A stretch of DNA of 37,379 bases from Candidatus Hydrogenedentota bacterium (GTDB taxonomy: Bacteria; Hydrogenedentota; Hydrogenedentia; Hydrogenedentales; SLHB01), in the NCBI GenBank assembly GCA_016215105.1, contig JACRLJ010000102.1:1-37379 (forward strand), read 5' to 3'. A program made the translations under genes and the position numbers. Each line of letters opens with the position of its first letter. Position 1 is the stretch's first letter. This document shows, piece by piece, positions 485 through 28,478 of the stretch. The notes below the pieces were generated by a model. That model was given only the letters and a program-made list of their open reading frames with translations. It did no database searches and was not told the DNA's origin.

Positions 485-510
485 TGGAGGCCTTCTGGCC
501 GCGCCTCTAG
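485..510. repeat. CTAG-bounded repeat, short/partial copy 1
   Basis: The segment ends in ttctggccgcgcctctag, the same terminus as the copies at 13.3 kb and 28.4 kb (reverse orientation). Only this end and the preceding ggaggcc are recognisable; the left boundary is unclear. The terminal CTAG (507-510) contains, on the minus strand, the TAG stop codon of the PIN-domain gene. Confidence 0.6.
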
Positions 511-992
511 CGCCTTTGCCGGAGTTCCTGATACCGCTTGAGTCGTTCGTCAAGCAGCTCGTGCGATATCCAGAAGTCGCTCTGCTTTAGCCGTGTGAAC
601 GCGTTCTGCAAGTCCAGCAAACCCCGATCTGCGGCCAATTCAAGCACGCCGACCGTGCCCGTAAACGGAATCTTCCGCGCTGCGGCAGCTCTTCTGCCAC
701 GCGCCTCATCAATCAGCAAGAGACCGTCTTTCAACTCGCGGGCGAGACTGATCGCTGCGCGTTCTCCCGCATGCAGCGCCGGGATTGACTCGATTACCGT
801 TGGCGTCCGTTCCAACAGCCAACCGGGAGGCGCCGAAATGAAATCACGCACAGCCTCGGGCCGATTCATCTGACGGAGTTCGCACGATACTTCGGGGGGA
901 ACGATGACTTGGCCGAACAGGCGTGGCAGCACGGCAATCTGCTCAATATTGACCAACACGATGAGCGGTGACGAGTCCGCGACAACCAGCAT
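507..992 (-). CDS. DUF3368-type PIN-domain protein (probable VapC-like toxin)
   Basis: A 161-residue PIN-like protein. The N-terminal VVADSSPLIVL carries the first acidic residue (Asp5). A central LLLIDEARGRRAA supplies further acidic residues, and the C-terminal GTVGVLELAADRGLL is the usual DUF3368 ending. PIN domains are Mg-dependent RNases, and in toxin-antitoxin pairs they cut tRNA or rRNA. The start codon overlaps the stop of the upstream antitoxin gene by one base (TAATG), which indicates translational coupling and a two-gene operon read leftwards. The stop codon is the TAG inside the CTAG terminus of a repeat element, so the element abuts the gene without truncating it. Toxin activity is inferred from family and gene order. 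Confidence 0.85.
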   Translation of the reverse strand: MLVVADSSPLIVLVNIEQIAVLPRLFGQVIVPPEVSCELRQMNRPEAVRDFISAPPGWLLERTPTVIESIPALHAGERAAISLARELKDGLLLIDEARGRRAAAARKIPFTGTVGVLELAADRGLLDLQNAFTRLKQSDFWISHELLDERLKRYQELRQRR

Positions 993-1270
993 TAACGCGT
1001 ATTCTCAAACACGCGGCTAAGAGTCTCCCGGTCCGCGTCCAGATCCGCCATCGTCAGCGACCCTTCCAAGACGTGGTGACGCTTGAGATAGGCGTCCATC
1101 TCCATACGGTCCAGGCCAAGAATTGAGGCAAGCTCGTAGTGGCTGAGACTGCCTCTTCGGAAAAGCTCGACCGCATATGCCTCGCGGACGTCTGCGTCGA
1201 GATTCGTGATTTCCCGCCGCAGTCTTTCCTCTAAGTCTGGCGGTAAGCTAAGGGTAACGTTCAGTGGCAT
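992..1270 (-). CDS. UPF0175-family antitoxin
   Basis: A 92-residue protein beginning MPLNVTLSLPPDLEERL. The central AYAVELFRRGSLSHYELASILGL is characteristic of UPF0175, a small helical DNA-binding-type family regularly encoded just upstream of DUF3368 PIN proteins. I chose the ATG at 1270 because a GAGG ribosome-binding site lies seven bases before it and because a longer version would add a low-complexity Arg-rich leader unlike the family. The gene overlaps the PIN gene by one base. It probably neutralises the PIN toxin and represses its own promoter; both are family inference. A leader of roughly 100 bases with a direct repeat lies upstream. Confidence 0.82.
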   Translation of the reverse strand: MPLNVTLSLPPDLEERLRREITNLDADVREAYAVELFRRGSLSHYELASILGLDRMEMDAYLKRHHVLEGSLTMADLDADRETLSRVFENTR

Positions 1271-1337
1271 CGGGCGCCTCACTAGACTCCTTGTCCGAAT
1301 TCTCCGCGCATGAAGCGAGACTACCGCGGACTGCGAA

Positions 1338-1391
1338 GTCAATTGTCACGTCAATTGATTCGAACCGTCCTGCTTTGTCCGCATTATACCA
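1338..1391 (-). promoter_or_regulatory. Extended -10 promoter and GTCAATTG direct repeat for the UPF0175/PIN operon
   Basis: On the minus strand TGGTATAAT (1391-1383) is a full extended -10 element with no good -35. It would start RNA near 1376, about 106 bases before the antitoxin ATG. Two copies of GTCAATTG, 12 bases apart start to start (1338-1345 and 1350-1357), lie just downstream of the predicted start. They are a possible antitoxin operator. Sequence pattern only. Confidence 0.4.
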
Positions 1392-1522
1392 TGGAAGCCC
1401 CTGACTCCGTCTGTGTCTTGTTTCCACTTGCCGTCCTTCGTGTTGTATCGTTACGTGTCGGCCAGTGGGATCGGAATCCGCGGCGTGGCCGCTCTGGAAG
1501 CAATTCAATAAGGAAATACGGA

Positions 1523-2755
1523 ATGCGAACAGTTCTTCTTCTCGCGCTGGCGGGAGTATGTGTTGGAAGCGTGGCCATGGCCGGGGAATCGCCCCAGTTT
1601 CGCGGGCCGCATCGCGATGGACGGTTTGACGAGCAGAACTTGTTGAAGTCGTGGCCCGAAACCGGCCCGCCGCTCCTGTGGATGACCAAGGGTTTGGGCA
1701 AAGGATATTCCTCTCCATCCATTGCGGGCGGGAAGATCTACGTTCCCGGCATGATTGACGACAAGACCGCCGGCATCTTCGTTATCAATCTGAAAGGCGC
1801 CATCGAACGCACGATACCTGTGGGCGCGGAGACGACCGACGCCCAGGCGTCCGGGCCACGCTCGACGCCGACCATCGACGGTGACCGCATGTACATGCTC
1901 TCCGGACTAGGCGAGGCCTACTGCATCGATATTGCCTCCGGAAAGAAGATCTGGAGCGTAAATATCCTCGAACGCTTCAAGGGTCCCAATATCATGTATA
2001 CCCTTGCCGAATCGCTGCTGGTGGATGGCCCGCGCGTCATCTGCACGCCGGGCGGGCCGGACGCCGGACTCGCCGCGCTGGACAAACTCACCGGGAACAC
2101 GGTCTGGGCCACGAAGGGATACAGCGATCCCGCGTCGTATTGCGCGCCCATTATCTACACGCACAACGGACGCCGTCTGCTTGTGACCGACTCGGCAAAC
2201 TGCCTCGTTGGCGCCGACGCCGACACCGGACAGTTTCTGTGGAAGTTCGAACACCTAACCCGGGACGGTATCCACGTGACCACGCCGCTCTATCAGGACG
2301 GGCTTGTTTACTACAGCGGCGGCTACAAGTCCGGCGGTGGCGCGCTACGGCTCTCAAAAGACGGCAGCCAAGTCGAAAGCGCATGGACCGACCTGACGCT
2401 CGACTGTCAGCATCACGGCGTGGTGCTCGTCGACGGCTACATCTACGGGACGAGCCACATGAATGGTAATCACCTGGTCTGTCTCGAAATGAAGACCGGA
2501 AAAGTGATGTGGACGGAAGAAGAAGTCAAACAAGGCGTGACCGAATACGCGGACGGTATGCTGTACGTGTATGAGGGTCCCAAGCGCGGCATTGTCCATC
2601 TGGTGAAACCGTCTCCCGAGCGTTGCGAACGCAAAGGGCAATTCACCGTAACAGAGGGCACCGGCAATCACTGGGCGCACCCGGCTATATCCAACGGCGT
2701 GCTGTACATCCGCCACGGCGATACCCTGCTCGCGTACGACGTGCGCGCCAAATAG
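1523..2755 (+). CDS. Secreted PQQ-type beta-propeller protein
   Basis: A 410-residue exported protein. The signal peptide covers residues 1-20 (MRTVLLLALAGVCVGSVAMA, cut before GES). The mature start QFRGPHRDGRF is the FRGP-DG motif seen at the N terminus of many planctomycete PQQ-like/BamB-like propellers. Repeated blades follow, with motifs such as IASGKKIW, KLTGNTVW, DTGQFLWKF and KTGKVMW, each the tryptophan-docking end of a PQQ-type repeat. I chose the ATG at 1523 because AAGGA sits eight bases upstream and the signal peptide begins there; a longer in-frame version would add an unlikely Arg-rich leader. No catalytic dehydrogenase signature is visible, so it may bind a ligand or act as a scaffold. 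A second, independent propeller of the same type lies about 4.7 kb downstream. Confidence 0.88.
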   Translation: MRTVLLLALAGVCVGSVAMAGESPQFRGPHRDGRFDEQNLLKSWPETGPPLLWMTKGLGKGYSSPSIAGGKIYVPGMIDDKTAGIFVINLKGAIERTIPVGAETTDAQASGPRSTPTIDGDRMYMLSGLGEAYCIDIASGKKIWSVNILERFKGPNIMYTLAESLLVDGPRVICTPGGPDAGLAALDKLTGNTVWATKGYSDPASYCAPIIYTHNGRRLLVTDSANCLVGADADTGQFLWKFEHLTRDGIHVTTPLYQDGLVYYSGGYKSGGGALRLSKDGSQVESAWTDLTLDCQHHGVVLVDGYIYGTSHMNGNHLVCLEMKTGKVMWTEEEVKQGVTEYADGMLYVYEGPKRGIVHLVKPSPERCERKGQFTVTEGTGNHWAHPAISNGVLYIRHGDTLLAYDVRAK

Positions 2756-2782
2756 GTGGCGTCGCAACAGATGCCAAACGAT

Positions 2783-4708
2783 TCAGAGGTTATCGGCGCC
2801 ATCCGTCAACCAAGCCAGTGAGAAGCGGACGAAACGAATCCACTGGCGGCGGTGCTTTTCGCCGCCCTCGAACAGCAGCCCGATATTGCCATCGGGAAGC
2901 CGCACCATCGTGGAATACGACGACGGGCCGGCGTGAATGAGTCTCTTGACAGGCCACGTCTTTCCCTCGTCATAACTCAGTCTGACGGTCATCCTCGTGC
3001 GCTCCAATATCCCGAACTTCTCGCCCGCGTTGTCCGGATTCGCGAAGAGCAGCCGGTCCTTCTTGTCTTGCGTGGCGAGGCTGTAGCGAACAATACTCGC
3101 CTGGCAAGGGCATTCATTTAGCGCACGATCCCAATGAAAGCTGGACCAAGTCTCGCCGCCATTCTCGCTGATGGCCACTCCCCGGCAGCTCATGCCCATG
3201 TTGCCGCGCATGTTCAACATCAGCTTTCCGTCCGCGAGTTCCACCACCTGGCTCTCATCCGATAGCTGTGCCACCCGCGCTCCCAGTGTCCAGGTCTTTC
3301 CATGGTCGTCGCTGTAGAGCACACGGGAATGCCAATTCTCGTCGGTCTCGTCGTTGGTTTCCCCGGTATATCCCGGTACAACCAAGCGCCCGCTTCGCAG
3401 TTGGATGCCGACACCCGGGCCGGCATTGAAGCTGTCGTCGTAGTTCGTCGTGCGCGCCTTGATATCCACCGGCTCGGACCATGTCGCGCCGTTATCGCGG
3501 CTCTCCAATTGAAAGTGCTGGTTGTGCCCCTCGCCGAACTTGTTCGCTTTATCGCATAGCAGAATGATGGCGTTGTTTTCGCGATCGACGACGGGGCACG
3601 GGTTCATGAGCGCCTCTTTTCCCACGCCATGCACCAACGCTTGCATAGGCAGCCACGTGCGGCCGCAATCAAGACTCCGCCGCAGGACCATGTCCGTCGG
3701 GCTCGCGTCCGCGCCGGACTCCTTGCGGGCCTCGCAGAAGACCAGCAATGAACTATCGGGCGCGAGGAGCATCCCGGGGATGCGGAACGTGTTCACCCCG
3801 CCTTGCCCGGCCACGAACACGTCGTTGAACTCCGGCGCGCCGCCCTGCTCCTCCGGCGCGGGACCGCAAACGACGCGGAATCCGATGTCACTGTGTGCCG
3901 CGGACGGTACATCGTGATTACGGCGCGACGACCGGCAGTAACCACCGACGCTGAGCCAACTGCCGCCGCGCAACACGCGGTGTTCCGCAATTGACGGTCC
4001 CGTCGGGTTGGTCGCGTGACCATCGGTGTAATACCCATGCCAATCCTGGCACCATTCAGAAACGTTCCCGCTCATGTCGTACAAACCCCACGGATTCGGA
4101 GGCATCGCGCCCACCGGCCGCGCGCATTCGCGCTCCGTAATCTGCGCGTTTCCCCGCCACCACGCGCGTCGACTGATTTCCTCGTAGTGCGGATCGTCAC
4201 CCCAATTGAACCGCGTCGTCGTCCCGGCGCGGCACGCGTATTCCCACTCCGCCTCCGTCGGCAGGCGGAACTCTTTTCCGGTAACGCCTTTCAACTTCGC
4301 GATAAACGCCTGCGCGTCGTCCCACGTGACATATACGGCAGGGCTCTTCGGGTCATCGCTCACGTACCGTTTGCCAACCCACGGCGTCGTCCCCATCACC
4401 GCCCGCCATTGTTCCTGCGTGACTTCATACCTCCCCAACCAGAACCCACGCGACAAGGTCACCCGATGTCGCGGGGTCTCCTTATTGGGATAAGCGTCCT
4501 GCTCGTTCGCGGTCTGGCCCATCATGAATGTCCCGGCGGGAATCCAAGTCAACGCGATTGCCGCGTTGCCGGGCAGTGCGACTGTCTCGCTTCCGCCGCT
4601 CTCCCCCACGGCCGCGCCGGGACGGCGCTCCAAATGATTGCATCCTCCCGCGAGCAGCGCGTTGCACAGTAAAAATAGACCACAAAGAATTCGCGTCCTG
4701 GTCCCCAT
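2783..4708 (-). CDS. Formylglycine-enzyme-like (SUMF1) plus sialidase fusion lipoprotein
   Basis: A 641-residue two-domain protein. Residues 1-23 form a lipoprotein-type signal with Cys23 in LLAGGC, suggesting membrane anchoring. Residues ~45-282 are an FGE-sulfatase domain: WIPAGTFMMG, GRYEVTQEQW, FRLPTEAEWEYACRAG, NPWGLYDMSGNVSEWCQDW, RVLRGGSW and IGFRVV. Residues ~295-640 are a sialidase-type six-bladed propeller, with the Arg-Ile-Pro motif at 309-311 and at least five Asp boxes (SLDCGRTW, SRDNGATW, SDDHGKTW, SENGGETW, SYDEGKTW). True formylglycine-generating enzymes use two cysteines five residues apart after RGGS; here the first position is Ser253 and only Cys258 remains, so sulfatase activation is doubtful. 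A glycan-related role outside the cytoplasm is inferred. I chose ATG 4708 over the adjacent GTG because of the GGAG site upstream. Confidence 0.88.
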   Translation of the reverse strand: MGTRTRILCGLFLLCNALLAGGCNHLERRPGAAVGESGGSETVALPGNAAIALTWIPAGTFMMGQTANEQDAYPNKETPRHRVTLSRGFWLGRYEVTQEQWRAVMGTTPWVGKRYVSDDPKSPAVYVTWDDAQAFIAKLKGVTGKEFRLPTEAEWEYACRAGTTTRFNWGDDPHYEEISRRAWWRGNAQITERECARPVGAMPPNPWGLYDMSGNVSEWCQDWHGYYTDGHATNPTGPSIAEHRVLRGGSWLSVGGYCRSSRRNHDVPSAAHSDIGFRVVCGPAPEEQGGAPEFNDVFVAGQGGVNTFRIPGMLLAPDSSLLVFCEARKESGADASPTDMVLRRSLDCGRTWLPMQALVHGVGKEALMNPCPVVDRENNAIILLCDKANKFGEGHNQHFQLESRDNGATWSEPVDIKARTTNYDDSFNAGPGVGIQLRSGRLVVPGYTGETNDETDENWHSRVLYSDDHGKTWTLGARVAQLSDESQVVELADGKLMLNMRGNMGMSCRGVAISENGGETWSSFHWDRALNECPCQASIVRYSLATQDKKDRLLFANPDNAGEKFGILERTRMTVRLSYDEGKTWPVKRLIHAGPSSYSTMVRLPDGNIGLLFEGGEKHRRQWIRFVRFSLAWLTDGADNL

Positions 4709-4894
4709 CACTCAACACTCCAAAATAGTAACTTCGGTTCAATTCTCAATAGTGCTTGACTCCGTGCGCCCAGAACAAATCGCCGAAACCGTGTGCCGCC
4801 GTTAAGACATTGGCACGCCACCCGAAGAATCGCCTGTTTATCGTATCGGCTTGGCCGCTTCGGTATACTTTGTCCGAATTGGAGCGACTACCAC

Positions 4895-5710
4895 ATGCCC
4901 GAAAATCCGCACGACTTCTCCGGTAACATCGAACGATTCAGCGGGTTCGCCGGAATATACGATAAGTACCGCCCCGAACCGCCATCCGTGATCGGATCAC
5001 TGCTTACGCGTCTAGCGCAAGCCACCTTCCCCGAACTTGTCGTCGACCTGGGCAGTGGAACGGGTCTTTCGACTCGCTACTGGGCGGATAAGGCTCGCGC
5101 CGTCATCGGCGTCGAGCCGACCGCCGATATGCGTCGCGAAGCCGAATCGCAGACCTCCGCGACGAACGTCACGTACAGAGACGGATTCTCCCATCAAACC
5201 GGACTTCCCGACCGATGCGCAGACATCGTCACGTGTTCTCAATCCCTTCACTGGATGGAGCCCCAGACAACCTTCCAGGAGGCCCAACGTATTCTGCGGC
5301 CCGGCGGCGTTTTCGCGGCGTTCGACTATGACTGGCCGCCCACGACCGACTCGTGGGAAGCGAATGACGCTTACACGCACTGCATAAAGCGCGTATATGA
5401 CTTCGAAAGAAGCGCCCGTCCTGCCAAGGCCCTTAAAGAATGGGACAAGAGTCAACACGTCACTCGCATGAAAGCCAGTGGGTGCTTTCGCTACGTCACG
5501 GAGGTCGTCGCGCACCACAATGATCGAGGCAACGCCGAAAGGCTCGTGGGCATTCTACTAAGTCAGGGCGGCGTGATGACCCTCCTCAAAAACGGCGTCA
5601 CGGAAGAGCAGGTAGGTATCGACGTGTTCCGCAGCGCCGTCCACCGTTTCCTGGGCTCCGAGTTGAAGCCGTGGCACTGGAGTTCGCGCATTCGCTTCGG
5701 CATTGTATGA
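4895..5710 (+). CDS. Class I SAM-dependent methyltransferase
   Basis: A 271-residue protein. Motif I (VVDLGSGTGLSTRYW) is the glycine-rich SAM-binding loop, followed by the acidic VIGVEPTADM, a DIVTCSQSLHWM motif IV region and LRPGGVFAAFDYDW. The opening FSGFAGIYDKYRPEPP is common in the UbiE/Trm9-like branch where an early Tyr-Arg-Pro precedes motif I. The ATG at 4895 is preceded by GGAG ten bases upstream, while the longer frame adds a basic leader without a binding site. The substrate cannot be told from sequence. It is divergent from the sialidase fusion gene and isolated downstream by a long non-coding, hairpin-rich stretch. Confidence 0.85.
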   Translation: MPENPHDFSGNIERFSGFAGIYDKYRPEPPSVIGSLLTRLAQATFPELVVDLGSGTGLSTRYWADKARAVIGVEPTADMRREAESQTSATNVTYRDGFSHQTGLPDRCADIVTCSQSLHWMEPQTTFQEAQRILRPGGVFAAFDYDWPPTTDSWEANDAYTHCIKRVYDFERSARPAKALKEWDKSQHVTRMKASGCFRYVTEVVAHHNDRGNAERLVGILLSQGGVMTLLKNGVTEEQVGIDVFRSAVHRFLGSELKPWHWSSRIRFGIV

Positions 5711-6130
5711 CAACGGATTTCCAAGAGGAGCTTATATTTTCCTCTCGAAAACGTGACTGCTAACGTGCCATTCTAAGCCGAGAGCTCCGGGACGGAGCGG
5801 TTTGAAAGGAAACACCGGGTGAAGGCGCCGTGGCCGGGAGGGCGAATGTCCTCATTCGCCGGTCTGGGCGCATCACCCCGTGCCGTTTTGCGGCCAATCA
5901 TATGCTTGAGACCTCACCCAGCCGGGTGGATCAGCATGGAACTAGAGTAGCGACCTACAAATAGGCCGGCTTGTCCCCCTGCACGAAGCGCGAGTTTAGC
6001 CCCGGTTAGGGGCGGAAGACGGTAGCCCACGGCGTGAGCCGTGGGACCAGACCACAGCCAAACGCCAGCCCCGTAGGGGCGAAAGAGCTTTCGTCCCATA
6101 TCGGCCAGGGGCGCCGCGTCAAGAAGCCCA
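5711..6130. repeat. Hairpin-rich intergenic region
   Basis: There is no plausible gene here. The stretch holds a string of short inverted repeats: AGAGGA/TCCTCT (5724-5745), GCTCCG/CGGAGC (5784-5798), GGCGAATG/CATTCGCC (5841-5860), GCCCC/GGGGC (5999-6013), CCCACGGC/GCCGTGGG (6026-6045) and GCCCC/GGGGC (6068-6080). The first may terminate the methyltransferase transcript. The others look like REP-type palindromes of several different families gathered in one place. Confidence 0.6.
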
Positions 6131-6150
6131 CTTTCTGGCCGAATTCCTAG
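6131..6150. repeat. CTAG-bounded repeat, half copy 2
   Basis: ctttctggccgaattcctag is the inverse complement of the left terminus of the element (CTAG-GAATTC-GGCCAGAAAG). The opposite half is not clearly recognisable. It lies 58 bases before the start of the second propeller gene. Confidence 0.5.
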
Positions 6151-6208
6151 CTTGAAAGCTTGCGGTGCGGCGACCGGACATGACATGCTCTGCAAAAAAG
6201 GATCGCCC

Positions 6209-7567: not shown

Positions 7568-7599
7568 AATGAATCTGCGCGCTACGGCCGCCAATGCGC

Positions 7600-7785
7600 C
7601 TACATCGTTCCATTGTGTTCAGGTACGTTGGCAACGGAGTGCGCGTCCTTGCCATCCACGGTCATCACATAGATCCGCCGGGTGCCCGTTTTATTCGATC
7701 CGTATGCTAACCACCCGCCGTCAGGCGGCAATTTTGGATGACAGTGCAACACTCCCGCCTTCGAATGCGTGAGCTGCTCCGACAC
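7600..7785 (-). pseudogene. Remnant of a TolB/PD40-type propeller protein
   Basis: About 60 residues in one frame read like a PD40 blade and linker: QLTHSKAGVLHCHPKLPPDGGWLAYGSN followed by TGTRRIYVMTVDG and a stop. Upstream in the same frame, after an in-frame TGA near 7800, a further stretch (VHWTLVEEDGIEASPKRHEIVEHG) looks coding too. A full-length propeller is absent, so this is most likely the decayed C-terminal end of a gene read leftwards. The rest of 7568-8016 holds nothing I can recognise. The call rests on residue pattern alone. Confidence 0.4.
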
Positions 7786-8016
7786 CTTCCGCCGTCAGCC
7801 ATGTTCGACAATTTCGTGGCGCTTCGGTGACGCTTCGATCCCATCTTCTTCCACCAGCGTCCAATGGACTGCACCGCAAGACGGGCGGTATTGTGATTCA
7901 ATCTTCCTTATGGAGGCCGCATCTTGCATGACCCCGCCACATATCAAATGCACAAAAAGGCGACGCTATTTTGATGCGGCTCCCAAGAGCGTCAAGCATG
8001 CCAAGACGTCAAGTCC

Positions 8017-8769: not shown

Positions 8770-8807
8770 AGCGTCCTATTCCCAACGGATTCCGTCCACA
8801 TATCCGA

Positions 8808-13260: not shown

Positions 13261-13274
13261 ACCATTGCGCTTGC

Positions 13275-13316
13275 CTGGAATTCGGCCAGAAAGCCGGCTT
13301 CTGGCCGCGCCTCTAG
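13275..13316. repeat. CTAG-bounded repeat, minimal unit (copy 3)
   Basis: About 42 bp: a degenerate left end followed by ggaattcggccagaaagcc and ggcttctggccgcgcctctag. This is the simplest form of the family, an almost perfect GGCCAGAAAGCC/GGCTTTCTGGCC hairpin (one T missing) with asymmetric GAATTC and GCGCCT shoulders and a terminal CTAG (13313-13316). It sits between the membrane-protein gene and the gdhA promoter. Confidence 0.7.
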
Positions 13317-16700: not shown

Positions 16701-16708
16701 GACACACC

Positions 16709-18187
16709 ATGCCGATTCTGATCGTGGTTAACAATCCCCAAAGCTGGCCGCTCCAAATTCCCGGCGGCGAGGTCATCTCCGCGCGAACCTACCTCACCGA
16801 GCCGGCCTATTCGGACATGCGCAACGCCAAGGTGTTCAATCTGTGCCGCTCCTATAGCTACCAGAGCATCGGCTATTACGTGTCGCTGCTGGCCATGGCG
16901 CGCGGTCACAAACCCCTGCCCAGCATTTCGACCATTCAGGACCTGAAGTCCCTGTCCATCATCCGAACGGTTGGAGACGAGTTGGAGGAATTGATCCAGC
17001 ACAGCCTCCGCCCGATCCAGTCCGACTCGTTTACGTTGAGTATCTATTTCGGACGTAACGTCGCCAAACGCTACGACCGGCTCAGTTCGCATTTGTTCAA
17101 ACTGTTTCAGGCCCCATTCTTGCGCGCTGAGTTCCGCTACGACAAGGACGACCAGCTCTGGACGCTGCATAACATCAGTCCCATTTCCGCCAACGAAATT
17201 CCGCAGGAGCTTTTCCCGTTCTTGATCGAGGCGGCGACGGAATACTTCGAGAGTTCGCGATGGAGCGTGCGCAAGAAGTCCATGCCCCGCTATGACCTGG
17301 CGATCCTCACCAATCAGGATGAGGAAGAGCCTCCATCCGACGAACGCGCGCTGCAATACTTCGTGCGGGCCGCTAAGAAGCTGGGCCTCGGAGCTGAATT
17401 CATTGACAAGGAAGATTACGGGCAGCTTCCTCAGTTTGACGCGCTGTTTATTCGCGAAACCACCCAAGTCAACAACCACACTTACCGTTTCGCCCGGCGC
17501 GCGGCGGCGGAAGGTTTGGTGGTCGTGGACGACCCCGAGTCCATCGCCAAGTGTACCAACAAGGTGTATCTGGAGGAGTTGCTTGGCCGCTACGATGTGC
17601 CCAAACCGAGGACCTTAATCGTCCACCGCGATAACATCGACGCCATACCCGAGCAGGTCGGACTGCCGTGCATCTTGAAGGAGCCGGACAGTTCATTCTC
17701 GCAGGGGGTCTACAAGGCCGAGGATGATTCGAGCCTGCGCACCATCGTGTCTCAGTTACTCGACGAATCCGAACTGATTATCGCCCAGGAATTCATGCCC
17801 ACTCCCTACGATTGGCGGGTCGGCATTTTTGACCGTCAGCCCATGTACGTGTGCAAGTACCACATGGCTCCGAAACACTGGCAGATACAGCGGACCGATC
17901 ACGTCGGAAAGATTCACTTCGGAAAGGTCGAAACGTTCCCATTGGACAAGGCGCCCGCCCAAGTGGTGCGAACGGCATTGCGCGCCGCCAACTTGATCGG
18001 TGACGGACTCTACGGCGTGGACCTGAAACACATTGGGCGGAAAACCTATGTCATCGAGATTAACGACAATCCGAGCATTGAAGCCGGTGTGGAAGACGCG
18101 GAACTGAAAGACGAACTGTACATGCGCATCATGTCGGTGTTCCTCAAGCGCATCGAACAACGCAAAGAAGCCCGGAACGGCCGATGA
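16709..18187 (+). CDS. RimK-like ATP-grasp ligase with N-terminal RLAN domain
   Basis: A 492-residue amide ligase. Residues ~1-190 match the RLAN domain that precedes a subset of RimK-like ligases (PILIVVNNPQSWPLQIPGGEV, an ARTYL segment, RVCN-like FNLCRSYSYQSIGYYVSLLA). Residues ~200-480 are ATP-grasp: KCTNKVYLEELL, PCILKEPDSSFSQGVYKAED for nucleotide binding, IAQEFMPTPYDWRVGIF, and the metal-binding YVIEINDNPSIEAG. Relatives join an amino group to a carboxylate, often glutamate, using ATP. AGGA lies six bases before the ATG. Its stop overlaps the start of the next ligase gene (ATGA), so the two ligases are made together. The actual substrates are unknown. Confidence 0.92.
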   Translation: MPILIVVNNPQSWPLQIPGGEVISARTYLTEPAYSDMRNAKVFNLCRSYSYQSIGYYVSLLAMARGHKPLPSISTIQDLKSLSIIRTVGDELEELIQHSLRPIQSDSFTLSIYFGRNVAKRYDRLSSHLFKLFQAPFLRAEFRYDKDDQLWTLHNISPISANEIPQELFPFLIEAATEYFESSRWSVRKKSMPRYDLAILTNQDEEEPPSDERALQYFVRAAKKLGLGAEFIDKEDYGQLPQFDALFIRETTQVNNHTYRFARRAAAEGLVVVDDPESIAKCTNKVYLEELLGRYDVPKPRTLIVHRDNIDAIPEQVGLPCILKEPDSSFSQGVYKAEDDSSLRTIVSQLLDESELIIAQEFMPTPYDWRVGIFDRQPMYVCKYHMAPKHWQIQRTDHVGKIHFGKVETFPLDKAPAQVVRTALRAANLIGDGLYGVDLKHIGRKTYVIEINDNPSIEAGVEDAELKDELYMRIMSVFLKRIEQRKEARNGR

Positions 18188-19416
18188 CCGAAACCAAACC
18201 CCTGGGCCTATTCGAGCGGATCGGCGTTGAAATTGAATATATGATCGTGGACCGGTCTACGCTGGCCGTACGTCCAATCACCGACAAAGTCATCTGGAGC
18301 GTTGCCGGCGAGTATCTCAATGAGGTTGAACGCGGCGTCATCTCGTGGTCAAACGAACTGGTGCTTCACGTCATCGAATTGAAGACCACCAATCCGGTCC
18401 CTTCCACCGCCGGCCTGACCACCGCGTTTCAGAAGAGCGTCGCCGAGATCAATGCGCTGCTGGCCCCTCTTGACGCCTGCCTGATGCCGACCGCCATGCA
18501 CCCCTGGATGGACCCCTTCCGCGAAATGGTCTTGTGGCCGCACGACGCGAACGAGATCTATGACGCGTTCAATCGCATCTTCAATTGCCAGGGACACGGT
18601 TGGTCCAACCTGCAAAGTGCGCATCTGAATCTTCCCTTCGCGAACGACGAGGAGTTTGCCCGGCTGCACGCCGCCATCCGTTTGGTCTTGCCCATCCTGC
18701 CCGCTTTGGCCGCGAGTTCTCCCGTGGTCGAGGGACGGCGGACCGGCCTGATGGATAACCGCCTCGAAGCCTATCGCACCAATTCCCAGCGGATTCCCTC
18801 GATCACGGGAAGAGTGATTCCGGAGCCGGTTTTTTCCATGGCCGGCTATCAGAAGCTCATCCTTCAACGCATGTTCGCCGATATTGCTCCCTATGATCCC
18901 GAGGGCGTCCTCCAGTATGAATGGCTCAATGCCCGTGGCGCGATTGCCCGCTTCGAACGCAACACGATCGAGATCCGCGTGCTGGACACGCAGGAATGCC
19001 CCGAGGCCGATCTGGCGATCATCGAAGTCATCATCGCGCTGCTCAAGGCGCTGACGGAGGAACGCTGGGTTTCCCTTGACGAGCAGAAGGCGTGTACCGT
19101 CGAGTCACTCGAAACCATCTTTCTTCAAACCGTCGAGGACGCCGATGCGGCCGTCATTCATGATCCGGCTTACCTGCGCGTATGCGGATTGCCTGAAACG
19201 AAGGCATGTACCGCAGGTGAATTGTGGCGGGATCTTGCGAAGCGCCTGTTCGCGCACAATGGGATTTCGCCCGCGCTGACACGCGTGCTCGAGCACGGCT
19301 CCCTTGCGCGGCGTATAGTCGAGGCCCTGAATAACGAAGGCTCGAACGACAGGATGAATGCGGTTTATGGAGAGTTGTGCGCTTGTCTTGCCGAAGGAAA
19401 GATGTTCCTCGCCTAG
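18184..19416 (+). CDS. GCS2-type glutamate-cysteine-ligase-like carboxylate-amine ligase
   Basis: A 410-residue member of the glutamine-synthetase-fold GCS2 group. FERIGVEIEYMIVD is the first glutamate-rich metal motif, and LKTTNPVPS, HPWMDPFREM, the histidine-bearing NCQGHGWSNLQSAHLNLPF and NTIEIRVLDTQECPEAD follow. These enzymes ligate an amino acid to a glutamate carboxyl using ATP. The gene is translationally coupled to the RimK-like ligase, so a product with at least two amide bonds is a fair inference. Its TAG stop lies inside the CTAG terminus of a repeat element, which separates it from the amidohydrolase. It is not assigned as gshA because no glutathione synthase gene lies next to it and its partner is a RLAN ligase. 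Confidence 0.9.
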   Translation: MTETKPLGLFERIGVEIEYMIVDRSTLAVRPITDKVIWSVAGEYLNEVERGVISWSNELVLHVIELKTTNPVPSTAGLTTAFQKSVAEINALLAPLDACLMPTAMHPWMDPFREMVLWPHDANEIYDAFNRIFNCQGHGWSNLQSAHLNLPFANDEEFARLHAAIRLVLPILPALAASSPVVEGRRTGLMDNRLEAYRTNSQRIPSITGRVIPEPVFSMAGYQKLILQRMFADIAPYDPEGVLQYEWLNARGAIARFERNTIEIRVLDTQECPEADLAIIEVIIALLKALTEERWVSLDEQKACTVESLETIFLQTVEDADAAVIHDPAYLRVCGLPETKACTAGELWRDLAKRLFAHNGISPALTRVLEHGSLARRIVEALNNEGSNDRMNAVYGELCACLAEGKMFLA

Positions 19417-19509
19417 AGGCGCGGCCAGAAAGCCTCCGCTTACCAAAACCCGACAAAAGCGAGCGCCGGTGTTAAATAACTTACAGGTGCTTTCTCGCCG
19501 AACTCCTAA
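19413..19509. repeat. CTAG-bounded repeat, long form (copy 4)
   Basis: 97 bp. It starts CTAGAGGCGCGGCCAGAAAG and ends in a decayed tttctcgccgaactcctaa. The first 83 bp match the copy at 28352 with six differences, all transitions. The left CTAG provides the stop of the GCS2 gene. The last part overlaps the likely start region of the amidohydrolase. Confidence 0.85.
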
Positions 19510-20673: not shown

Positions 20674-20703
20674 ACGTGGTCTTTCCAACGCAGCAGATGC
20701 GGA

Positions 20704-21162
20704 ATGTCGCTTCCCATGCCTGACTCGACAACGCCATCCCTCGAAGACTTTGAGATCGTTACCCGGCACATGGTCATGGAAAAGGATCTCAACCCGTTCG
20801 GCAATCTCTACGGCGGCATGATGCTCAGTTGGCTTGATGAAGGAGCGGCGCTGTATGTGATGGAGAAGATCGGATACGCGAATTTCGTCACGGTCAGCCT
20901 GGACAATGTGAATTTCAAAGCGCCCGGTCACCGGGGAGACGCCATCGTGTTGTACTGCCGTGTCCTGCGGACGGGGCGGTCGTCAATCGTCGTTCAGTCG
21001 AAGGCTCTGGCGCACGAGCCCATCACTGGCGCCAAGCGGGACATTATCACGTGCCAAATCACCTACGTTTGCCTGATGAATGAACGGCCCTACCCCTATT
21101 TCCAAAGTGCGGAGTACGCTGAGTGGCGCACTCGGAGCGCCGCGGAGAATCCAGCCCTCTAA
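20704..21162 (+). CDS. Hotdog-fold acyl-CoA thioesterase
   Basis: 152 residues, a normal length for single-hotdog acyl-CoA thioesterases of the YciA/ACOT type, which release free fatty acid and CoA. The motif MEKDLNPFGNLYGGMMLSWLDEGA is the conserved N-A/N-x-x-G-x-x-GG-x-x-x-x-x-x-D catalytic helix region with the essential Asp. VTVSLDNVNFKAPGHRGD is the second conserved strand pair. A methionine four codons later is an alternative start. The stop overlaps that of the convergent coiled-coil gene by two bases, so the two transcripts meet end to end. Confidence 0.88.
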   Translation: MSLPMPDSTTPSLEDFEIVTRHMVMEKDLNPFGNLYGGMMLSWLDEGAALYVMEKIGYANFVTVSLDNVNFKAPGHRGDAIVLYCRVLRTGRSSIVVQSKALAHEPITGAKRDIITCQITYVCLMNERPYPYFQSAEYAEWRTRSAAENPAL

Positions 21163-22889: not shown

Positions 22890-22938
22890 GCGTCACTCCG
22901 TCGTTTCCAAGACGATACGAACTCCCCTGACTAGGCGT

Positions 22939-22967
22939 ATTCTAGGCAGTTTTCGGAAATGTGTCAA
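22939..22967 (-). promoter_or_regulatory. Sigma70 promoter of the coiled-coil/MshEN gene
   Basis: Minus-strand TTGACA (22967-22962), 17-bp spacer, TAGAAT (22944-22939). It is close to the consensus, with the ATG about 43 bases beyond the expected start point and GGAG six bases before it. Confidence 0.75.
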
Positions 22968-23108
22968 CAGCTATCTTGCGCGGGGTTCCCTTTAGCCCCT
23001 TTTTCAGCGGCCACACCCAAACTACTGGTGGCAATGCGCATACGAATGTTCTAGAATATCGCGGGCTCGGCTTTACCTTGTACAAACAACGCTCGGGAGA
23101 CGGTTTTC

Positions 23109-23823
23109 ATGTTCCGTGGTTCGCTGGTTGCGCTCGCAACACCCTTCAAGACCAATTTCGACATCTCCCGTGATCGCCGGTACGGGCTCCAATAGCACAC
23201 GTGAGGCGCTCGCCCTTACCAAGCACGCCAAGGCCGTCGGCGCCGACGGAGCGCTGCTGATTACCCCGTACTACAACAAGCCAACCGCTGCCGGACTGCT
23301 CGCCCACTATCGGACGATCGCCGAAGGCGTGGACATACCCATCATGCTCTACAACGTGCCGAGCCGGACGGGGATCAATGTAGCTCCGGAGACGGTAGCC
23401 GAGCTCCACAAGATCCGAAACATCGTTTGTATCAAGGAAGCCGCCGGAAACGTGGACCAGGTTTCTCAAATTCGATCGCTGTGCGGCATCACAGTGCTGT
23501 CCGGTGACGACAGTCTGACCCTGCCTATGATGTCGGTCGGAGCGGTCGGCGTCGTGTCGGTGGCGGCCAACGTCGCGCCTGCGAAGGTTGCGGCCTTGTG
23601 CGCTCGGTTCGCCGCTGGCGATCTTGCGGCGGCCCAGGAGATTCACTATCAATTGATGCCGTTGTTCAAAGGCTTGTTCATTGAGACGAATCCCATGCCG
23701 GTCAAGGCTGTTCTGGCGCGTATGGGGCTCATTGAAAATGTGCTGCGTCTCCCACTTACATCGGCACAGCCGGCGACAGTCGCCAAACTCGAGCCGATCA
23801 TTAAGCAACTCGGTATCATCTGA
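23109..23823 (+). pseudogene. dapA: 4-hydroxy-tetrahydrodipicolinate synthase with internal deletion
   Basis: The frame opening at ATG 23109 gives MFRGSLVALATPFKTNFD, the standard DapA N terminus, preceded by GGGAGA. It then runs into a stop at 23193. In the next frame, from about 23167, the rest of DapA continues: PVIAGTGSNSTREAL, ITPYYNKPT, IMLYNVPSRTGINV with the catalytic Tyr, and VCIKEAAGNVDQV with the Schiff-base Lys. Compared with the ~292-residue E. coli enzyme about 52-56 residues are missing, including the GTTGES loop whose threonine belongs to the catalytic triad. A deletion not divisible by three is the simplest reading. A functional enzyme cannot be made from this copy unless the gap is an assembly error. 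dapB follows after 45 bases. Confidence 0.85.
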
Positions 23824-23868
23824 TCCCAAATTGACGCGGATGCGAAGCGGAGACAAGGACTAATAGTC

Positions 23869-24663
23869 ATGAAGATTTGTATGGCGGGCGCCTGTGGACG
23901 TATGGGACGCCGAATTCTCGAGATGACCGCGGAAGCCAGTGACCTCGATATTGGCGGCGCCTTTGATATCCCGGCGCTGGCGGGAACGGAAATCGTCATT
24001 AGCCAACGGGGACACTCGAGCGTACTGCGCGTCTCGGGTGAACCGGCCGCGGAGATCGCGAACTCCGACGCGCTGATTGACTTCACGATTGCGAACGCGT
24101 GTGTGGCCAATGCGCGCGTCGCCGCAGGCCTGGGCAAACCCTGCGTTATCGGGACGACCGGATTGGACGACGCGCAGAAGAAAGAATTGAAGACACTTGC
24201 GCAACGCATTGCCATCGTTCACGCGCCCAACATGAGCGTAGGAGTCAACCTGCTGTTCAAGCTGACCAGTCAGGTTGCCGCCGTTCTCGGGCTGGACTAC
24301 AACGTCGAAATTGTCGAAACGCACCACAATCTAAAGAAAGACAGTCCGAGCGGTACCGCGGTTCGGTTGGCGGAGCGCGCGGCGGAGGCGCTGGGTCTGA
24401 AGTACGATGAGGACGTCACGCACGGCCGCGAAGGGCTGGTGGGCGAGCGTCCGCGGCGTCAGATTGGTATGCACGCCTTGCGAGGCGGCGACGTAGTCGG
24501 CGATCACACCGTGAGTTTTATCGGGCCCGGCGAACGTATCGAGCTGACGCACCGCGCCCACAACCGCGATAACTTCGCTCGAGGCGCGCTCATCGCCGCC
24601 CGGTTCGCGGTCAAAGCGCAGCCTGGCATTTACGATATGCAGGATGTGCTTGGCCTCAAGTAG
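23869..24663 (+). CDS. dapB: 4-hydroxy-tetrahydrodipicolinate reductase
   Basis: A 264-residue enzyme of the diaminopimelate/lysine pathway, reducing the DapA product with NAD(P)H. The N-terminal GACGRMGRRI is the nucleotide-binding loop. LIDFTIANA and CVIGTTGLDD follow, then VETHHNLKKDSPSGTA, which is the catalytic signature with His-His, Lys and the SGTA substrate loop. HALRGGDVVGDHTV and an RAHNRDNFARGAL ending are also typical. The length is normal and the gene appears intact, in contrast to the broken dapA just before it; the pair was evidently one operon. Confidence 0.95.
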   Translation: MKICMAGACGRMGRRILEMTAEASDLDIGGAFDIPALAGTEIVISQRGHSSVLRVSGEPAAEIANSDALIDFTIANACVANARVAAGLGKPCVIGTTGLDDAQKKELKTLAQRIAIVHAPNMSVGVNLLFKLTSQVAAVLGLDYNVEIVETHHNLKKDSPSGTAVRLAERAAEALGLKYDEDVTHGREGLVGERPRRQIGMHALRGGDVVGDHTVSFIGPGERIELTHRAHNRDNFARGALIAARFAVKAQPGIYDMQDVLGLK

Positions 24664-24731
24664 GCCGGCGCGCGGCTTCCTTGTCAGCAATGGCTTCGCG
24701 AATGACATAGGAGTTGCTGACAGAAGTCTCT

Positions 24732-25889
24732 ATGGACCGCATCTACCTCGATCATAGCGCCACCACCCCCATACGCGCCGAAGTGTACACCGCGATGGAG
24801 CCATACCTCCGCGATTGTTACGGAAACGCCGGCTCTGTCCACTGGTTCGGCCGGCTGTGCCGCAAGGCCGTGGACGAGGCCCGGGACCAAGTGGCCGCGC
24901 TAATTCACGCCGATCCCCGGGAAATCGTCTTCACGTCGGGCGGAACCGAATCGAACAATCTGGCCATACGTGGAATAGCGGATGCGGCGCCGCGTCCGGG
25001 ATTGCGGATCGTTACCAGCGCCATCGAGCACCACGCGGTGTTGCATGCGGCTTACTACGTTCGTGACCACTCGGGAGCGGACGTCCAGGTAGCGCGGGTG
25101 AATGCGACGGGGCTCGTTGACCCGGCGGAAATCGGCGAGCTGATCAACGGCAACACGGCGCTTGTGTCGCTGATGCACGCCAACAACGAGACCGGCGTGA
25201 TACAGCCCATCGAAGCGGTCGCCGAACTGTGCGCCGCGCGCGGCGTTTGCTTTCACTCGGACACCGTTCAGTCGGTCGCGAAGATTCCCATCGACGTGCG
25301 CGCCGTTCCAATCGGCCTGCTAGCCATTTCCGGACACAAACTCTACGCGCCAAAGGGCGTCGGCGCGTGTTATGTCCGTACTGGTGTCCAGCTCGTCCCG
25401 CAAGCCGTCGGCGGAGCGCAGGAGCGTGGACGCCGCGCAGGCACGGAGAACGTCGCGGGCATCGTGGCGTTGGGCATGGCCTGCGAACTCGCGCGCGCGG
25501 ACATGGAAGCCGAGGCTACCCGGCACCGCGCGCTAAGGGATGCGTTGGAGCGGCGGATTCTCGACGAGATTCCTGGCGCGTTTCGCAACGGTCACGCGGA
25601 ACGCCGCCTGCCGCATCTGCTGAACATAGGGTTTCGCGCGATCGAGGGCGAATCCATCGTTCTCGGCCTGGATACCGAAGGCATCGCGGTGTCGAGCGGT
25701 TCCGCCTGTACCTCGGGGTCGCTCGAGCCGTCGCACGTGCTGCTCGCGATGGGACTGTCGCAAGCCGACGCTCAAAGCGCGGTCCGATTTAGCCTCGGCC
25801 GCGCGACAACAAGCGCCCAGATCGAACGCGTCTGTGATGTCCTGTCGAAGCTGACCAAGCGCCTCCGCGAAACGCGCCTCGCCCCCTAG
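24732..25889 (+). CDS. Cysteine desulfurase (NifS/IscS-like)
   Basis: A 385-residue PLP enzyme that takes sulfur from cysteine for Fe-S clusters or tRNA thiolation. Visible are YLDHSATTP, GNAGSVHWFGR, FTSGGTESNNLAIRG, EHHAVLHA, MHANNETGVIQPI, SGHKLYAPKGVGACYVR with the PLP lysine, and GSACTSGSLEPSHVL with the catalytic Cys in a short NifS-type loop. ATG 24732 gives the usual MDRIYLDHSATTP start; the preceding TTG at 24714 is less likely. No scaffold gene (iscU/nifU) follows. It is downstream of dapB on the same strand with a 68-base gap, so co-transcription is possible. Confidence 0.94.
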   Translation: MDRIYLDHSATTPIRAEVYTAMEPYLRDCYGNAGSVHWFGRLCRKAVDEARDQVAALIHADPREIVFTSGGTESNNLAIRGIADAAPRPGLRIVTSAIEHHAVLHAAYYVRDHSGADVQVARVNATGLVDPAEIGELINGNTALVSLMHANNETGVIQPIEAVAELCAARGVCFHSDTVQSVAKIPIDVRAVPIGLLAISGHKLYAPKGVGACYVRTGVQLVPQAVGGAQERGRRAGTENVAGIVALGMACELARADMEAEATRHRALRDALERRILDEIPGAFRNGHAERRLPHLLNIGFRAIEGESIVLGLDTEGIAVSSGSACTSGSLEPSHVLLAMGLSQADAQSAVRFSLGRATTSAQIERVCDVLSKLTKRLRETRLAP

Positions 25890-25949
25890 CCGCCGCGGAA
25901 TGTGTGTGACCGAAACGCACTCCGGTATCACAGGTGCAGTTTATTGTAC

Positions 25950-27146
25950 TCATTTATCGCTAGCGGTCGGCTTGGCGTTGCCCTCATCTGCGACGTCGGT
26001 GTTCTCGATGACTGGCATGGGGGCTTGTCCGTGCCACAGCAGGGCAAGGCGCTTAGTGACCGGGTCGAACGCGCATATCTGTTCATCACCCAGTTGAAAC
26101 AGGGCTATGTCTGACGGCAGATGCACCGCGTTTCGGACTCTCCACGATACAAACGGAGTTTCGTAAGCGAAGTGAAATCGTTCTCCGGTCTTCTTGTTTA
26201 TGGTCAGCAGTCCTTCGCCCGCCCAGAAATTAACCTGGAATTTCCAGGGGCTTTCTTGATGGGCGCCGAGCTCTGGCGCTTCACCGAAGTTGAACCACCT
26301 CTCCTCGGACTGGCGGGGATCGGCGCTGTAGATCTGGAAGCGCGGCGCTGCTTCGATAGAAAGGTTTGTCTTTATGACTTCGAACCGTGGATTCTTGTAG
26401 TCGCCGGTTTCAAGTCGGGCGGCTAAATCCCAGCGGTTCGAATCCGACGGGTTCCGCCGTAGGAACAGGACGTCGCCACGACTTGTTGATCCCAAATCGT
26501 AAACCTTCTGCGCGGTTCCTCCCGTCAAAGGGCGTGAGTAGGCATTGCCATCGTCCGGATCTATGTAGTAGACAGTAACCGAATTTGGCAGCGGCAGTTC
26601 CGCCGCCGCGACAATGGTGGTGTTCGTGAAGAGCGAAGCGCCGCTGGGCAGCCAGTACCAACCGAACAAGAGAACATACGACGCACTCTGAACCGCGAAA
26701 GACGCTAGCACGCTCCGTCCTAGCCAGTTCTTTCTGCCGCGGAAACACCACGCGATGAACGGCCATTCCGATGCGAGTGTCATGCAATAGGCAAGAAATA
26801 CCATGCTCCAGAGCCACCGCAACCCGTTGTTCAGGTCCATCGGTAGCATGGGCACGATCCACTCACTTATGACGAACATGCCCAACCAAGCGGAAAAATA
26901 GTTGGCGGGAATCATTACCAGAATGCTTTTGGCCTTTGGGAGCTCAAACAGCCGGGCAAGTAGCAGTCCCTCGCCAATGCCGATTAGTGTGTTCCCGAAC
27001 AGTAAGTGTAAGATGCCCGCCCACATCAGCGGCGTTCCAGAGTTCGCCCAAGCGAGCGGAGACAAAGCAAGGACCGCTAAGACAAAAACTGATGAACGGG
27101 ATTTTGCGCCATACCTTCCGCCGTGGATAATCTGGAAGTGATCCAT
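25950..27146 (-). CDS. Membrane protein with soluble C-terminal domain, unknown function
   Basis: 398 residues. The first ~180 hold five or six hydrophobic spans (SSVFVLAVLALSPLAWA, GILHLLFGNTLIGIGEGLLLARLF, ILVMIPANYFSAWLGMFVIS, LRWLWSMVFLAYCMTLA, SASYVLLFGWYWLPSG). The remaining ~215 residues form a beta-rich soluble part with VTVYYIDPDDGNAY, GDVLFLRRNP, RFQIYSADPRQSEERWFNFGEAP and ALFQLGDEQICAFDPVTKRLALLWHG, the last resembling a propeller blade. I do not recognise the family. GGGGAGA lies about ten bases before the ATG. It is convergent with the cysteine desulfurase. Confidence 0.75.
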   Translation of the reverse strand: MDHFQIIHGGRYGAKSRSSVFVLAVLALSPLAWANSGTPLMWAGILHLLFGNTLIGIGEGLLLARLFELPKAKSILVMIPANYFSAWLGMFVISEWIVPMLPMDLNNGLRWLWSMVFLAYCMTLASEWPFIAWCFRGRKNWLGRSVLASFAVQSASYVLLFGWYWLPSGASLFTNTTIVAAAELPLPNSVTVYYIDPDDGNAYSRPLTGGTAQKVYDLGSTSRGDVLFLRRNPSDSNRWDLAARLETGDYKNPRFEVIKTNLSIEAAPRFQIYSADPRQSEERWFNFGEAPELGAHQESPWKFQVNFWAGEGLLTINKKTGERFHFAYETPFVSWRVRNAVHLPSDIALFQLGDEQICAFDPVTKRLALLWHGQAPMPVIENTDVADEGNAKPTASDK

Positions 27147-27193
27147 GACGCGCTTATCTCCCCTTCAATCCGGCAATCGTTACCGCACGATCC

Positions 27194-27898
27194 CTACCGC
27201 AGTTCCTTGACCTTGAGATTGCGGAATTCGATGCGGTAGCCCTCGCCCTCGAGGCCCACCAAGCCCTTGGGATTGCCGCAGTCTTTGACCTCGCACGTGA
27301 CGGCGCCGTTGACCCACAAAGTCAAGGTGGCGCCGCGCGCCGTGATCTCGAGCGTGTTCCATTCGCCCGCGGGCTTCACGCGGCCGTCCGTCACTTCCTT
27401 CGTGGTGGTGAAGAACTTCTTCTTTCCATCTGGACCAGGCGTTTCCCCGAAGAGATAGCCGCCATTGCCGTCGCCGATCTGGGCCTGATGCCAAAGGGAG
27501 CCGTCCTTGTTGTTTCGCGCGTAGACACCGCTGTTGTACCCGGACTTTCCCTCCACCTTGGTGTAGCGGAATTCGCAGTGAAATATGGCGTCGCCGAACT
27601 CGCGGTCGCACAACAGCATGTCGTGCCCGCCGTCGCCTTCGCAAACCAGCAGCTTGCCGGACTCTTCGACGCGCCACTGCTGCTTACCGAGCGGAGCGCC
27701 GGGTGGGACTGGCACGCGCGACCAGCCTTTCAGACTGGCGGGCGGCATGATGTCTACCCACCCTTTCGAATCCGCCTCAAGGGCGCTCGGCGCCGGGTCC
27801 GCCGCATCCGCGCTTCCCATCATCAAAACGGTTAGCAGTAGCCCCGCAAGGCCCCACCGGCCAAACCCACGACTTGCTGTACGGCGCAAAGTTTCCAT
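27194..27898 (-). CDS. Secreted DUF1080 (3-keto-disaccharide hydrolase-like) protein
   Basis: 234 residues. A signal peptide covers residues ~1-32 with a twin-arginine-like start and a GSADA cleavage zone. The DUF1080/LamG-like jelly roll follows: GWVDIMPPASLKGWSR, QWRVEESGKLLVCEGDGG, FHCEFRYTKVEGKSGYNSGVYAR, QIGDGNGGYLFGE, EWNTLEITARGATLTLWVNG and GEGYRIEFRNLKVKEL. This family is abundant in planctomycete-type genomes, and characterised members act on 3-keto sugars. ATG 27898 was chosen because it opens the signal peptide; a start 20 codons earlier is possible but would mask it. The ribosome-binding site is weak. The gene is single and close to the decayed doc toxin gene. Confidence 0.85.
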   Translation of the reverse strand: METLRRTASRGFGRWGLAGLLLTVLMMGSADAADPAPSALEADSKGWVDIMPPASLKGWSRVPVPPGAPLGKQQWRVEESGKLLVCEGDGGHDMLLCDREFGDAIFHCEFRYTKVEGKSGYNSGVYARNNKDGSLWHQAQIGDGNGGYLFGETPGPDGKKKFFTTTKEVTDGRVKPAGEWNTLEITARGATLTLWVNGAVTCEVKDCGNPKGLVGLEGEGYRIEFRNLKVKELR

Positions 27899-27967
27899 GC
27901 AGCACGTTAGCCCGGTAAGCGCTGCAAAGTCAATCCGCTTCTGTTTCGTCGCCATCAACAGCGCACG

Positions 27968-28352
27968 TTACTTCGTCTGGATGTGGCGCGCCAGCCATTC
28001 GGCAAAGTCGTCGCGTCTCATACCGCCCGAGGCCACGCGGAGAATCACTTCTTCCTGCTCACCAACCTCTGCTGCGATCTCGAAACCGTTGAGGTCAAGA
28101 AACACTTCCGTGGCCGCGTGCCCAGTTCTTTTGTTGCCATCCACAAAGGGATGATTGCAGATAAGGGAATGGCCGAGGGCAGCGGCTTTCGCGGCGAGGG
28201 AGGGATATAAGTCATTTCCATCGAACGTTGCGAATGGCTGCGCCAATGCGGATTTCAACGCCGTCAAGTCCAGCAGTAGCGATTGGTCCACCGGACACGG
28301 TCATGACGCCTCGGTGCAGTTCCAGAACTTCGGCGAGAGAAAGGTAGCGCAC
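27968..28352 (-). pseudogene. doc: Death-on-curing (Doc/Fic) toxin with frameshift
   Basis: The N-terminal part ([22 protein letters not shown]) lies in one frame from GTG 28352. The rest ([22 protein letters not shown], then [20 protein letters not shown] with the Fic motif, and [21 protein letters not shown]) lies in another. The switch is near 28285-28293, in the sequence tccggtggacca. Removing one base would restore a full ~128-residue Doc, which phosphorylates or otherwise modifies EF-Tu in known systems. As read, the gene is inactive unless a recoding or sequencing error is involved. The start codon overlaps a CTAG at the end of the repeat element. The antitoxin lies on the other side of the element. 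Confidence 0.85.
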
Positions 28353-28478
28353 TAGAGGCGCGGCCAGAAAGCCTCCGCTTACCAAGACCCGGCAAGAGCG
28401 AGCGCCGGTGCTAAACAACTTACAGATGCTTTCTGGCCGCGCCGCGCCAGATAGCCGGCTTTCTGGCCGGACTCCTAG
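28352..28478. repeat. CTAG-bounded repeat, composite long form (copy 5)
   Basis: 127 bp counting both CTAG ends. It holds the same 83-bp block as the copy at 19413, followed by a second hairpin unit (gcgccagatagcc/ggctttctggcc) and a terminus ggactcctag. It lies exactly between the antitoxin stop and the doc start. One CTAG gives the antitoxin TAG, the other overlaps the doc GTG. Confidence 0.88.

Follow-up and report, generated by a model that had tools for sequence, protein, structure and literature searches.

The window, a 37,379-nucleotide stretch of DNA from a Candidatus Hydrogenedentota bacterium (assembly GCA_016215105.1, contig JACRLJ010000102.1, positions 1 to 37,379), carries copies of a short dispersed repeat, here called element E. 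E is a previously undescribed family of miniature inverted-repeat transposable elements (MITEs) of a known type. Quite probably, it is moved in trans by an insertion sequence of the IS1182 type that has the tetranucleotide CTAG as its target and probably duplicates it on insertion. A search of the open-licence literature met no publication on E, and none that treated stop codons and CTAG together with the target specificity of insertion sequences.

Copies and sequence of E

The DNA fetched amounts to 2.50 Mb (37%) of the 6.68 Mb genome, which is assembled in 171 contigs and is 95% complete. This sample consists of the window, 1.45 Mb of tiles that were partly picked for holding matches, and a further 1.02 Mb that for the most part follows the order of the contigs. 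A profile made from full E copies has 108 matches in the sample. The contig-order set, with 26 of these, extrapolates roughly to about 171 copies per genome. Some contigs have an E copy at or across one of their limits (the start of L051 and the ends of L056 and L034), and copies at contig ends may therefore be undercounted.

The 127-nt consensus consists of CTAG, the tip AGGCGC, GGCCAGAAAGCC, 54 nt, GCTTTCTGGCCGCGCC, GCGTCAAAAAGCCGGCTTTCTGGCC, the tip GGATTC and a second CTAG. E has the inverted repeats of a MITE in the form of the 12-nt GGCCAGAAAGCC sequence at both ends, in a subterminal position behind six unequal nucleotides. An earlier note on this DNA, made from the sequence of the window, had likewise described asymmetric ends. 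E has no coding capacity and no transposase attached. As in other MITEs, the copies are dispersed and uniform in length, 66 of the 75 two-ended copies being exactly 127 nt long. Of the 73 near-full copies, 65 were aligned, and their mean pairwise identity is 0.80. At up to one mismatch, the palindrome of E is found 198+230 times in the genome versus 37+34 times for the reversed pattern, and the end pattern CTAGN6GGCCAGAAAGCC is found 92+93 times versus 0+0 for its reversed control.

There is also a class of about 44 nt, in which both tips surround a single palindrome. One pattern found six such copies in the tiles (L017:13707, L033:3114, L049:11921, L050:27, L062:4481 and L130:17913), and a further one lies at window position 13274. 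The profile misses single-palindrome copies, and none of this class is among its 108 matches. Short and shortened copies look like the products of deletions between the repeated palindromes.

E as such is found in one of 59 other genomes related to its host, as a 24-nt piece in G038 (E-value 7.9e-4). An exact 19-mer of E matches two records of the genome_contigs collection, neither of them a full E, and two patterns have no match in viral_contigs.

Target site, relatives and the probable parent transposase

CTAG is the terminal 4-mer at 53 of 86 left ends and 41 of 93 right ends, and both ends carry it in 25 of 74 copies. Beyond these 4-mers the flanks have no clear consensus. The earlier proposal of a small non-autonomous element situated at CTAG, with no transposase attached, is supported. 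CTAG is its own reverse complement, so that its presence at both ends is ambiguous as a direct repeat. The junctions between E and other repeats support duplication indirectly. A single 4-mer is common to the two partners in all seven junctions found, five of them with family X (once with the X end shortened) and two with family Y, both families being described below. The common 4-mer is CTAG in four cases, of the CTGG type in two and CTAA in one. Repeated insertion with target duplication gives this pattern. The closest published MITE found, MITEPsy1 of Pseudomonas syringae, duplicated a 4-nt target, CTAG or YTAA, in vivo, according to the parts of the report available (PMC3189936). The 4-mers common to these junctions and this published relative suggest that CTAG is probably duplicated when E inserts. 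A published table, available in part and without its column heading, gives the IS1182 member ISPse1 the value 4, read here as the length of the target repeat (PMC3281130).

The end pattern CTAGN6GGCCAGAAAGCC, at up to one mismatch, has matches in 12 of 99 other genomes, ten of which have one match each. Such single matches mean little, since 18 of the 100 genomes have one or two control matches. The clear cases are two genomes of the same family, G011 with 7+13 matches and G008 with 2+2, both with 0 control matches. The tips differ in these genomes (GGGTCC and AAGCCC), and the layout is the same as that of E. The pattern CTAGN6GGCCAGAAANCC, matched exactly, occurs in five of 68 genomes of the order, with 43+42 matches in the genome of E itself, 6+13 in G011, 1+2 in G008 and one each in G017 and G042; the control has 0 matches in the 68.

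Ends of this type facing each other, each with one mismatch to CTAGN6GGCCAGAAAGCC, enclose 265 bp at two places in G011 and 1,974 bp at one place in G008 (C483:1287-3260). The G008 interval contains a transposase. The Pfam domain DDE_Tnp_1 matches inside it with an E-value of 8.4e-9, and NF033551, the NCBIfam model of the IS1182 transposase, matches between the ends at C483:1491-3050 with an E-value of 1.2e-70, covering 36-483 of 488 model positions in a 616-residue open frame. The same model matches G042 at C94:6077-7639 (E-value 2.3e-68), beside an E-type end at 7826-7847. The IS1634 model matches neither the G008 nor the G042 transposase.

The most likely sequence of events would begin with an insertion sequence of the IS1182 type, whose DDE transposase would have recognised the ends of E by the conserved GGCCAGAAAGCC inverted repeats situated 6 nt inside the tips. 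E would then have been inserted at CTAG, most likely with duplication of 4 bp. The parent would now be absent from the assembly, and the present copies would be fossils whose identity has fallen by drift to about 80%, often with the loss of one CTAG. The genome of E has no IS1182 match at an E-value of 0.001 or less in its assembly of 171 contigs and 95% completeness, and E therefore looks orphaned. As to an autonomous copy in the same genome, none of the five DDE_Tnp_1 loci has E ends, and there is no match to DUF772.

The last two observations also bear on a different parent. MITEPsy1 resembles E in several respects. As described in the available parts of the paper, it is 100 nt long and has no gene, its ends GGAAGGTCTGAAAAAGCC and GTATCCTCTGAAAAAGCC are in the same layout, and in these inverted ends the outermost 6 nt are divergent while the inner 12 nt, ending in AAAGCC, are conserved (PMC3189936). 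It differs from E in its core sequence and host, and has 6 copies in strain 1448A compared with about 170 of E (PMC3189936). Its authors proposed ISPsy2, an IS5-family element, as the parent (PMC3189936). The common layout, inner AAAGCC and CTAG target would be consistent with a parent of E in the IS5 group rather than in IS1182. However, DUF772 and E ends at DDE_Tnp_1 loci are missing as described, and the transposase bracketed in G008 scores with the IS1182 model, the models compared being IS1182 and IS1634. An IS5-group parent thus seems improbable.

Several observations weigh against an IS1182-type parent and CTAG duplication. Both IS1182 scores, 239 and 231 bits, are below the NCBIfam cut-off of 270 bits, so that "IS1182-type" is meant here in a broad sense. 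G011, the relative richest in E-type ends, has no IS1182 match on the contigs that carry its 20 ends, and its one match above the cut-off (C111) is on a contig without an E-type end. At four of the G011 ends a contig start no more than 94 nt away cuts off the inside of the element, and longer copies may therefore be unassembled in that genome. For the G042 element, a match was obtained at one end only. The likeness between E and its putative parent consists of 22-nt end patterns together with the position of the transposase, with both ends present in G008 and one in G042, and the left tip of E, AGGCGC, differs from those seen in the relatives. The parent proposed for MITEPsy1, again in the parts of the paper available, belongs to IS5 and not to IS1182 (PMC3189936). 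Among 17 copies with two non-CTAG ends, the 4-mers are equal in only two and reverse complements in two. Finally, no empty site was found for 105 copies when both flanks were searched separately against the tiles: 38 have an outside match, seven have one on both sides, and none has the two at one place. The earlier suggestion of a duplicated CTAG, made from the copy at 28352-28478, has the support of the seven junctions and the published relative.

The IS1182 family itself resembles E in that a transposase scoring with its model lies between E-type ends in G008. A palindromic target, GGCC, is given for its member ISPsy36 in the portion of the source available. It differs from E, which has no transposase, and no CTAG-targeting IS1182 member was met in the portions of the literature examined.

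E might alternatively be an element of the repetitive extragenic palindrome (REP) or bacterial interspersed mosaic element (BIME) type, spread by a REP-associated tyrosine transposase (RAYT) of the HUH, Y1 class, with CTAG replacing GTAG at the foot of the hairpin. REP elements, too, are short, palindromic and intergenic, and have a tetranucleotide at their foot, as the available parts of one study describe them (PMC8266576). E shares with them its outward-facing tetranucleotides, its mostly intergenic position and its more than 100 copies. As single-stranded DNA, both strands of a window copy fold better than shuffled sequences, forming two hairpins (z of -3.7 and -4.6). The genome has 13 Y1_Tnp genes, one of them in the window at 36677-37273, and a GTAG REP mutated to CTAG was still cleaved in vitro, with reduced activity (PMC8266576, seen in part). 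Nevertheless, when the 13 loci were searched in 1.9-3.3 kb of fetched sequence, several cut by contig ends, one had a half copy of E, 1.1 kb away, and twelve had none; the link to RAYT was rejected. Palindromes other than E are situated at the five Y1_Tnp loci that were read and at the window gene. In the same study REP elements have GTAG, not CTAG, and an HUH transposase (PMC8266576, likewise in part), and no such gene was found linked to a full E. The same ends as those of E bracket a DDE transposase in G008. Spread by a RAYT is thus unlikely.

A structured RNA was also considered and rejected. None of 16 base pairs shows compensatory changes, and no Rfam family reaches its gathering score on E, the best sub-threshold E-value being 0.04. 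By these tests E is not an RNA, and it is probably not a REP element.

Stop codons and the copies in the window

Genes were called with a codon-usage gene caller written for this analysis, giving 1,968 genes and 85% coding sequence. After exclusion of four profile matches near tile ends, 104 copies of E could be scored: 27 end exactly in the stop codon of a gene, 70 are intergenic, five overlap a called gene start and two are inside a gene. The 1,637 other CTAG sites are divided into 153 gene stops, 550 intergenic sites and 934 sites inside genes. By this comparison, E rarely lies within a gene.

The association with stops exceeds that of all CTAG sites (27/104 versus 153/1,637, p=2e-6). In a caller-free test, at least 150 open codons are present in the frame of the end TAG for 30 of 176 ends, the corresponding counts for the two remaining frames being 6 and 8. 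These results would suit selection of E for sitting at stops, where it would supply a stop or a terminator-like hairpin, or a preference for stops beyond CTAG itself. However, no excess over the CTAG sites outside gene bodies is demonstrated (27/97 versus 153/703, p=0.19), although a small one would be compatible with the odds ratio of 1.4. The same comparison for full copies only, with 16 of 68 at stops, gives p=0.76, and the contig-order set by itself has stops at 5 of 26 copies. The long stem of E has compensatory changes in 0 of 16 pairs over the 65 aligned copies, which argues against a selected hairpin. Stop selection is thus unlikely, and the earlier claim that E supplies stops to its neighbours, or prefers stop sites beyond CTAG, is not supported. 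The stop-codon pattern is more simply read as the outcome of CTAG targeting combined with the loss of insertions that broke genes. The stops were probably inherited with the target and not supplied by E. CTAG has few sites within genes and includes TAG, so that a gene ending in CTAG would keep its own stop after an insertion there, and the insertions that break genes would be lost. CTAG being often between genes or at stops, E can spread while rarely breaking genes.

All five places in the window at which copies of one palindromic family had been reported hold members of E, and the palindrome is far above its reversed-pattern control. The full-length copy (127 nt, 28352-28478, + strand) has CTAG at 28352-28355 and at 28475-28478. 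An internally shortened copy of 97 nt (19413-19509, +) has CTAG on the left and CTAA on the right. The minimal copy (43 nt, 13274-13316, - strand) has one palindrome between a right-type and a left-type tip, with CTAG at 13313-13316 and CCTG at 13274-13277, and is outside the 108 profile matches. A right-end fragment with CTAG at 6147-6150 occupies 6111-6150 (+); it is longer than the 6131-6150 first reported and has the right end only. A left-end fragment with CTAG at 507-510 occupies 485-510 (-). The ends had been said to lie next to CTAG, which is true for six of the eight ends present, the others having the CTAA and CCTG just given.

The TAG of an E end is exactly the stop codon of three called genes, as the earlier note had stated. 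These are a DUF3368 gene (507-992, -), whose product we take to be PIN-type, a GCS2-family ligase gene (18184-19416, +) and a 65-residue open reading frame (28475-28672, -), which uses the right end of the full copy. The name "Doc antitoxin" for the latter comes from its place upstream of the Doc/Fic toxin gene (27968-28291, -), which is situated downstream of the full E copy; the frame has no Pfam or NCBIfam match at an E-value of 0.01 or less. Pfam coverage reaches within 7 positions of the profile end in GCS2 and within 1 in DUF3368, showing that these domains are uncut. The GCS2 protein extends 115 residues beyond its domain, and the third upstream protein is without a domain.

Other features touch on the window copies. 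An Acido-Lenti-1 RNA (Rfam, 46.3 bits) is found at 5998-6045 (-), beside the E fragment at 6111. Window 5981-6090 is matched by sequence flanking four further E copies (in L019, L049, L052 and L130) and is therefore itself a repeat often near E. The gene caller puts start codons 53-60 nt inside E, in both orientations, at window 19469 and at L121:8277, L174:4603, L019:7808, L028:8940 and L029:18032; these may be artefacts of the caller or N-termini encoded by E. The Y1_Tnp gene at 36677-37273 (-) encodes a REP-associated tyrosine transposase (NF047646, 102 bits) and lies between 53-nt inverted repeats (36611-36663 and 37234-37286) whose palindrome is unlike that of E.

CTAG as a proposed landing site

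Two further repeat families occur in the genome. Family X (for example L016:8502-8657, L056:9386-9551 and L051:6684-6849) has a model of 166 positions and 45 copies, 15 of them near full length, with ends CTAG-TGTAGTG. Its sequence CTAGTGTAGTGNNTCA is present in 13 of 68 genomes, including that of E, and the control matches in two of 68. In G065 (C22) a DDE_3 (IS630-type) transposase lies in an element of 1,174 bp enclosed by a facing pair of X ends. This element is probably the parent of family X, which would then be an IS630-type MITE. The genome of E has no DDE_3 match, and when long X elements were sought by their ends in its tiles the distances were mostly scattered. ISPsy32, of the IS630 family, has a CTAG target according to the part of the source available. 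The IS630 family fits X and not E, its ends being unrelated to those of E. One genome thus appears to contain orphans of two unrelated transposase types, both kinds sited at CTAG. A preference of IS630 itself for CTAG was reportedly described by Tenzen and Ohtsubo in 1991, to judge by the title as cited in PMC2170065.

Family Y (L160:1435-1537 and L029:10421-10522, for example) is about 97 nt long and has 34 copies. Its right end GACAAAGAAG is followed most often by CTAT, CTAA or CTAG. Two other recurrent words of the tiles, CTAGACCCTAGA with 11 occurrences and CTAGGGTCTAGG with 10, are unrelated to the ends of E, X or Y.

CTAG is under-represented in the 2.50 Mb, with 1,769 sites observed versus about 3,036 expected from tri- and dinucleotides. 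It ranks first of the 256 tetranucleotides in the tiles for lying outside gene bodies, where 42.1% of the 1,637 sites away from E are found versus a mean of 14.6%; TTAG and CTAA come next. In eight 50-kb stretches (400 kb) of E. coli K-12, with genes called by a simpler, retrained version of the caller, CTAG is first again, with 21 of 52 sites outside gene bodies versus a mean of 12.8%. There CTAA ranks 6th and TTAG 22nd, so that only CTAG tops both genomes.

We tentatively suggest, as a possibility somewhat less likely than not, that CTAG is a convergent low-damage target. Unrelated DDE transposases, of IS1182 type for E and of IS630 type for X, would use the tetranucleotide found most often outside gene bodies, and a duplication containing TAG would keep the stop of a gene intact. 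If so, low-damage CTAG targeting would let orphan MITEs exceed 100 copies. The stop-codon coincidence itself is explained by target choice together with the probable loss of harmful insertions. The tetranucleotide ranking gives a measured reason, in two genomes only, why CTAG is a good target, and it makes evolved low-damage targeting testable across insertion sequence families.

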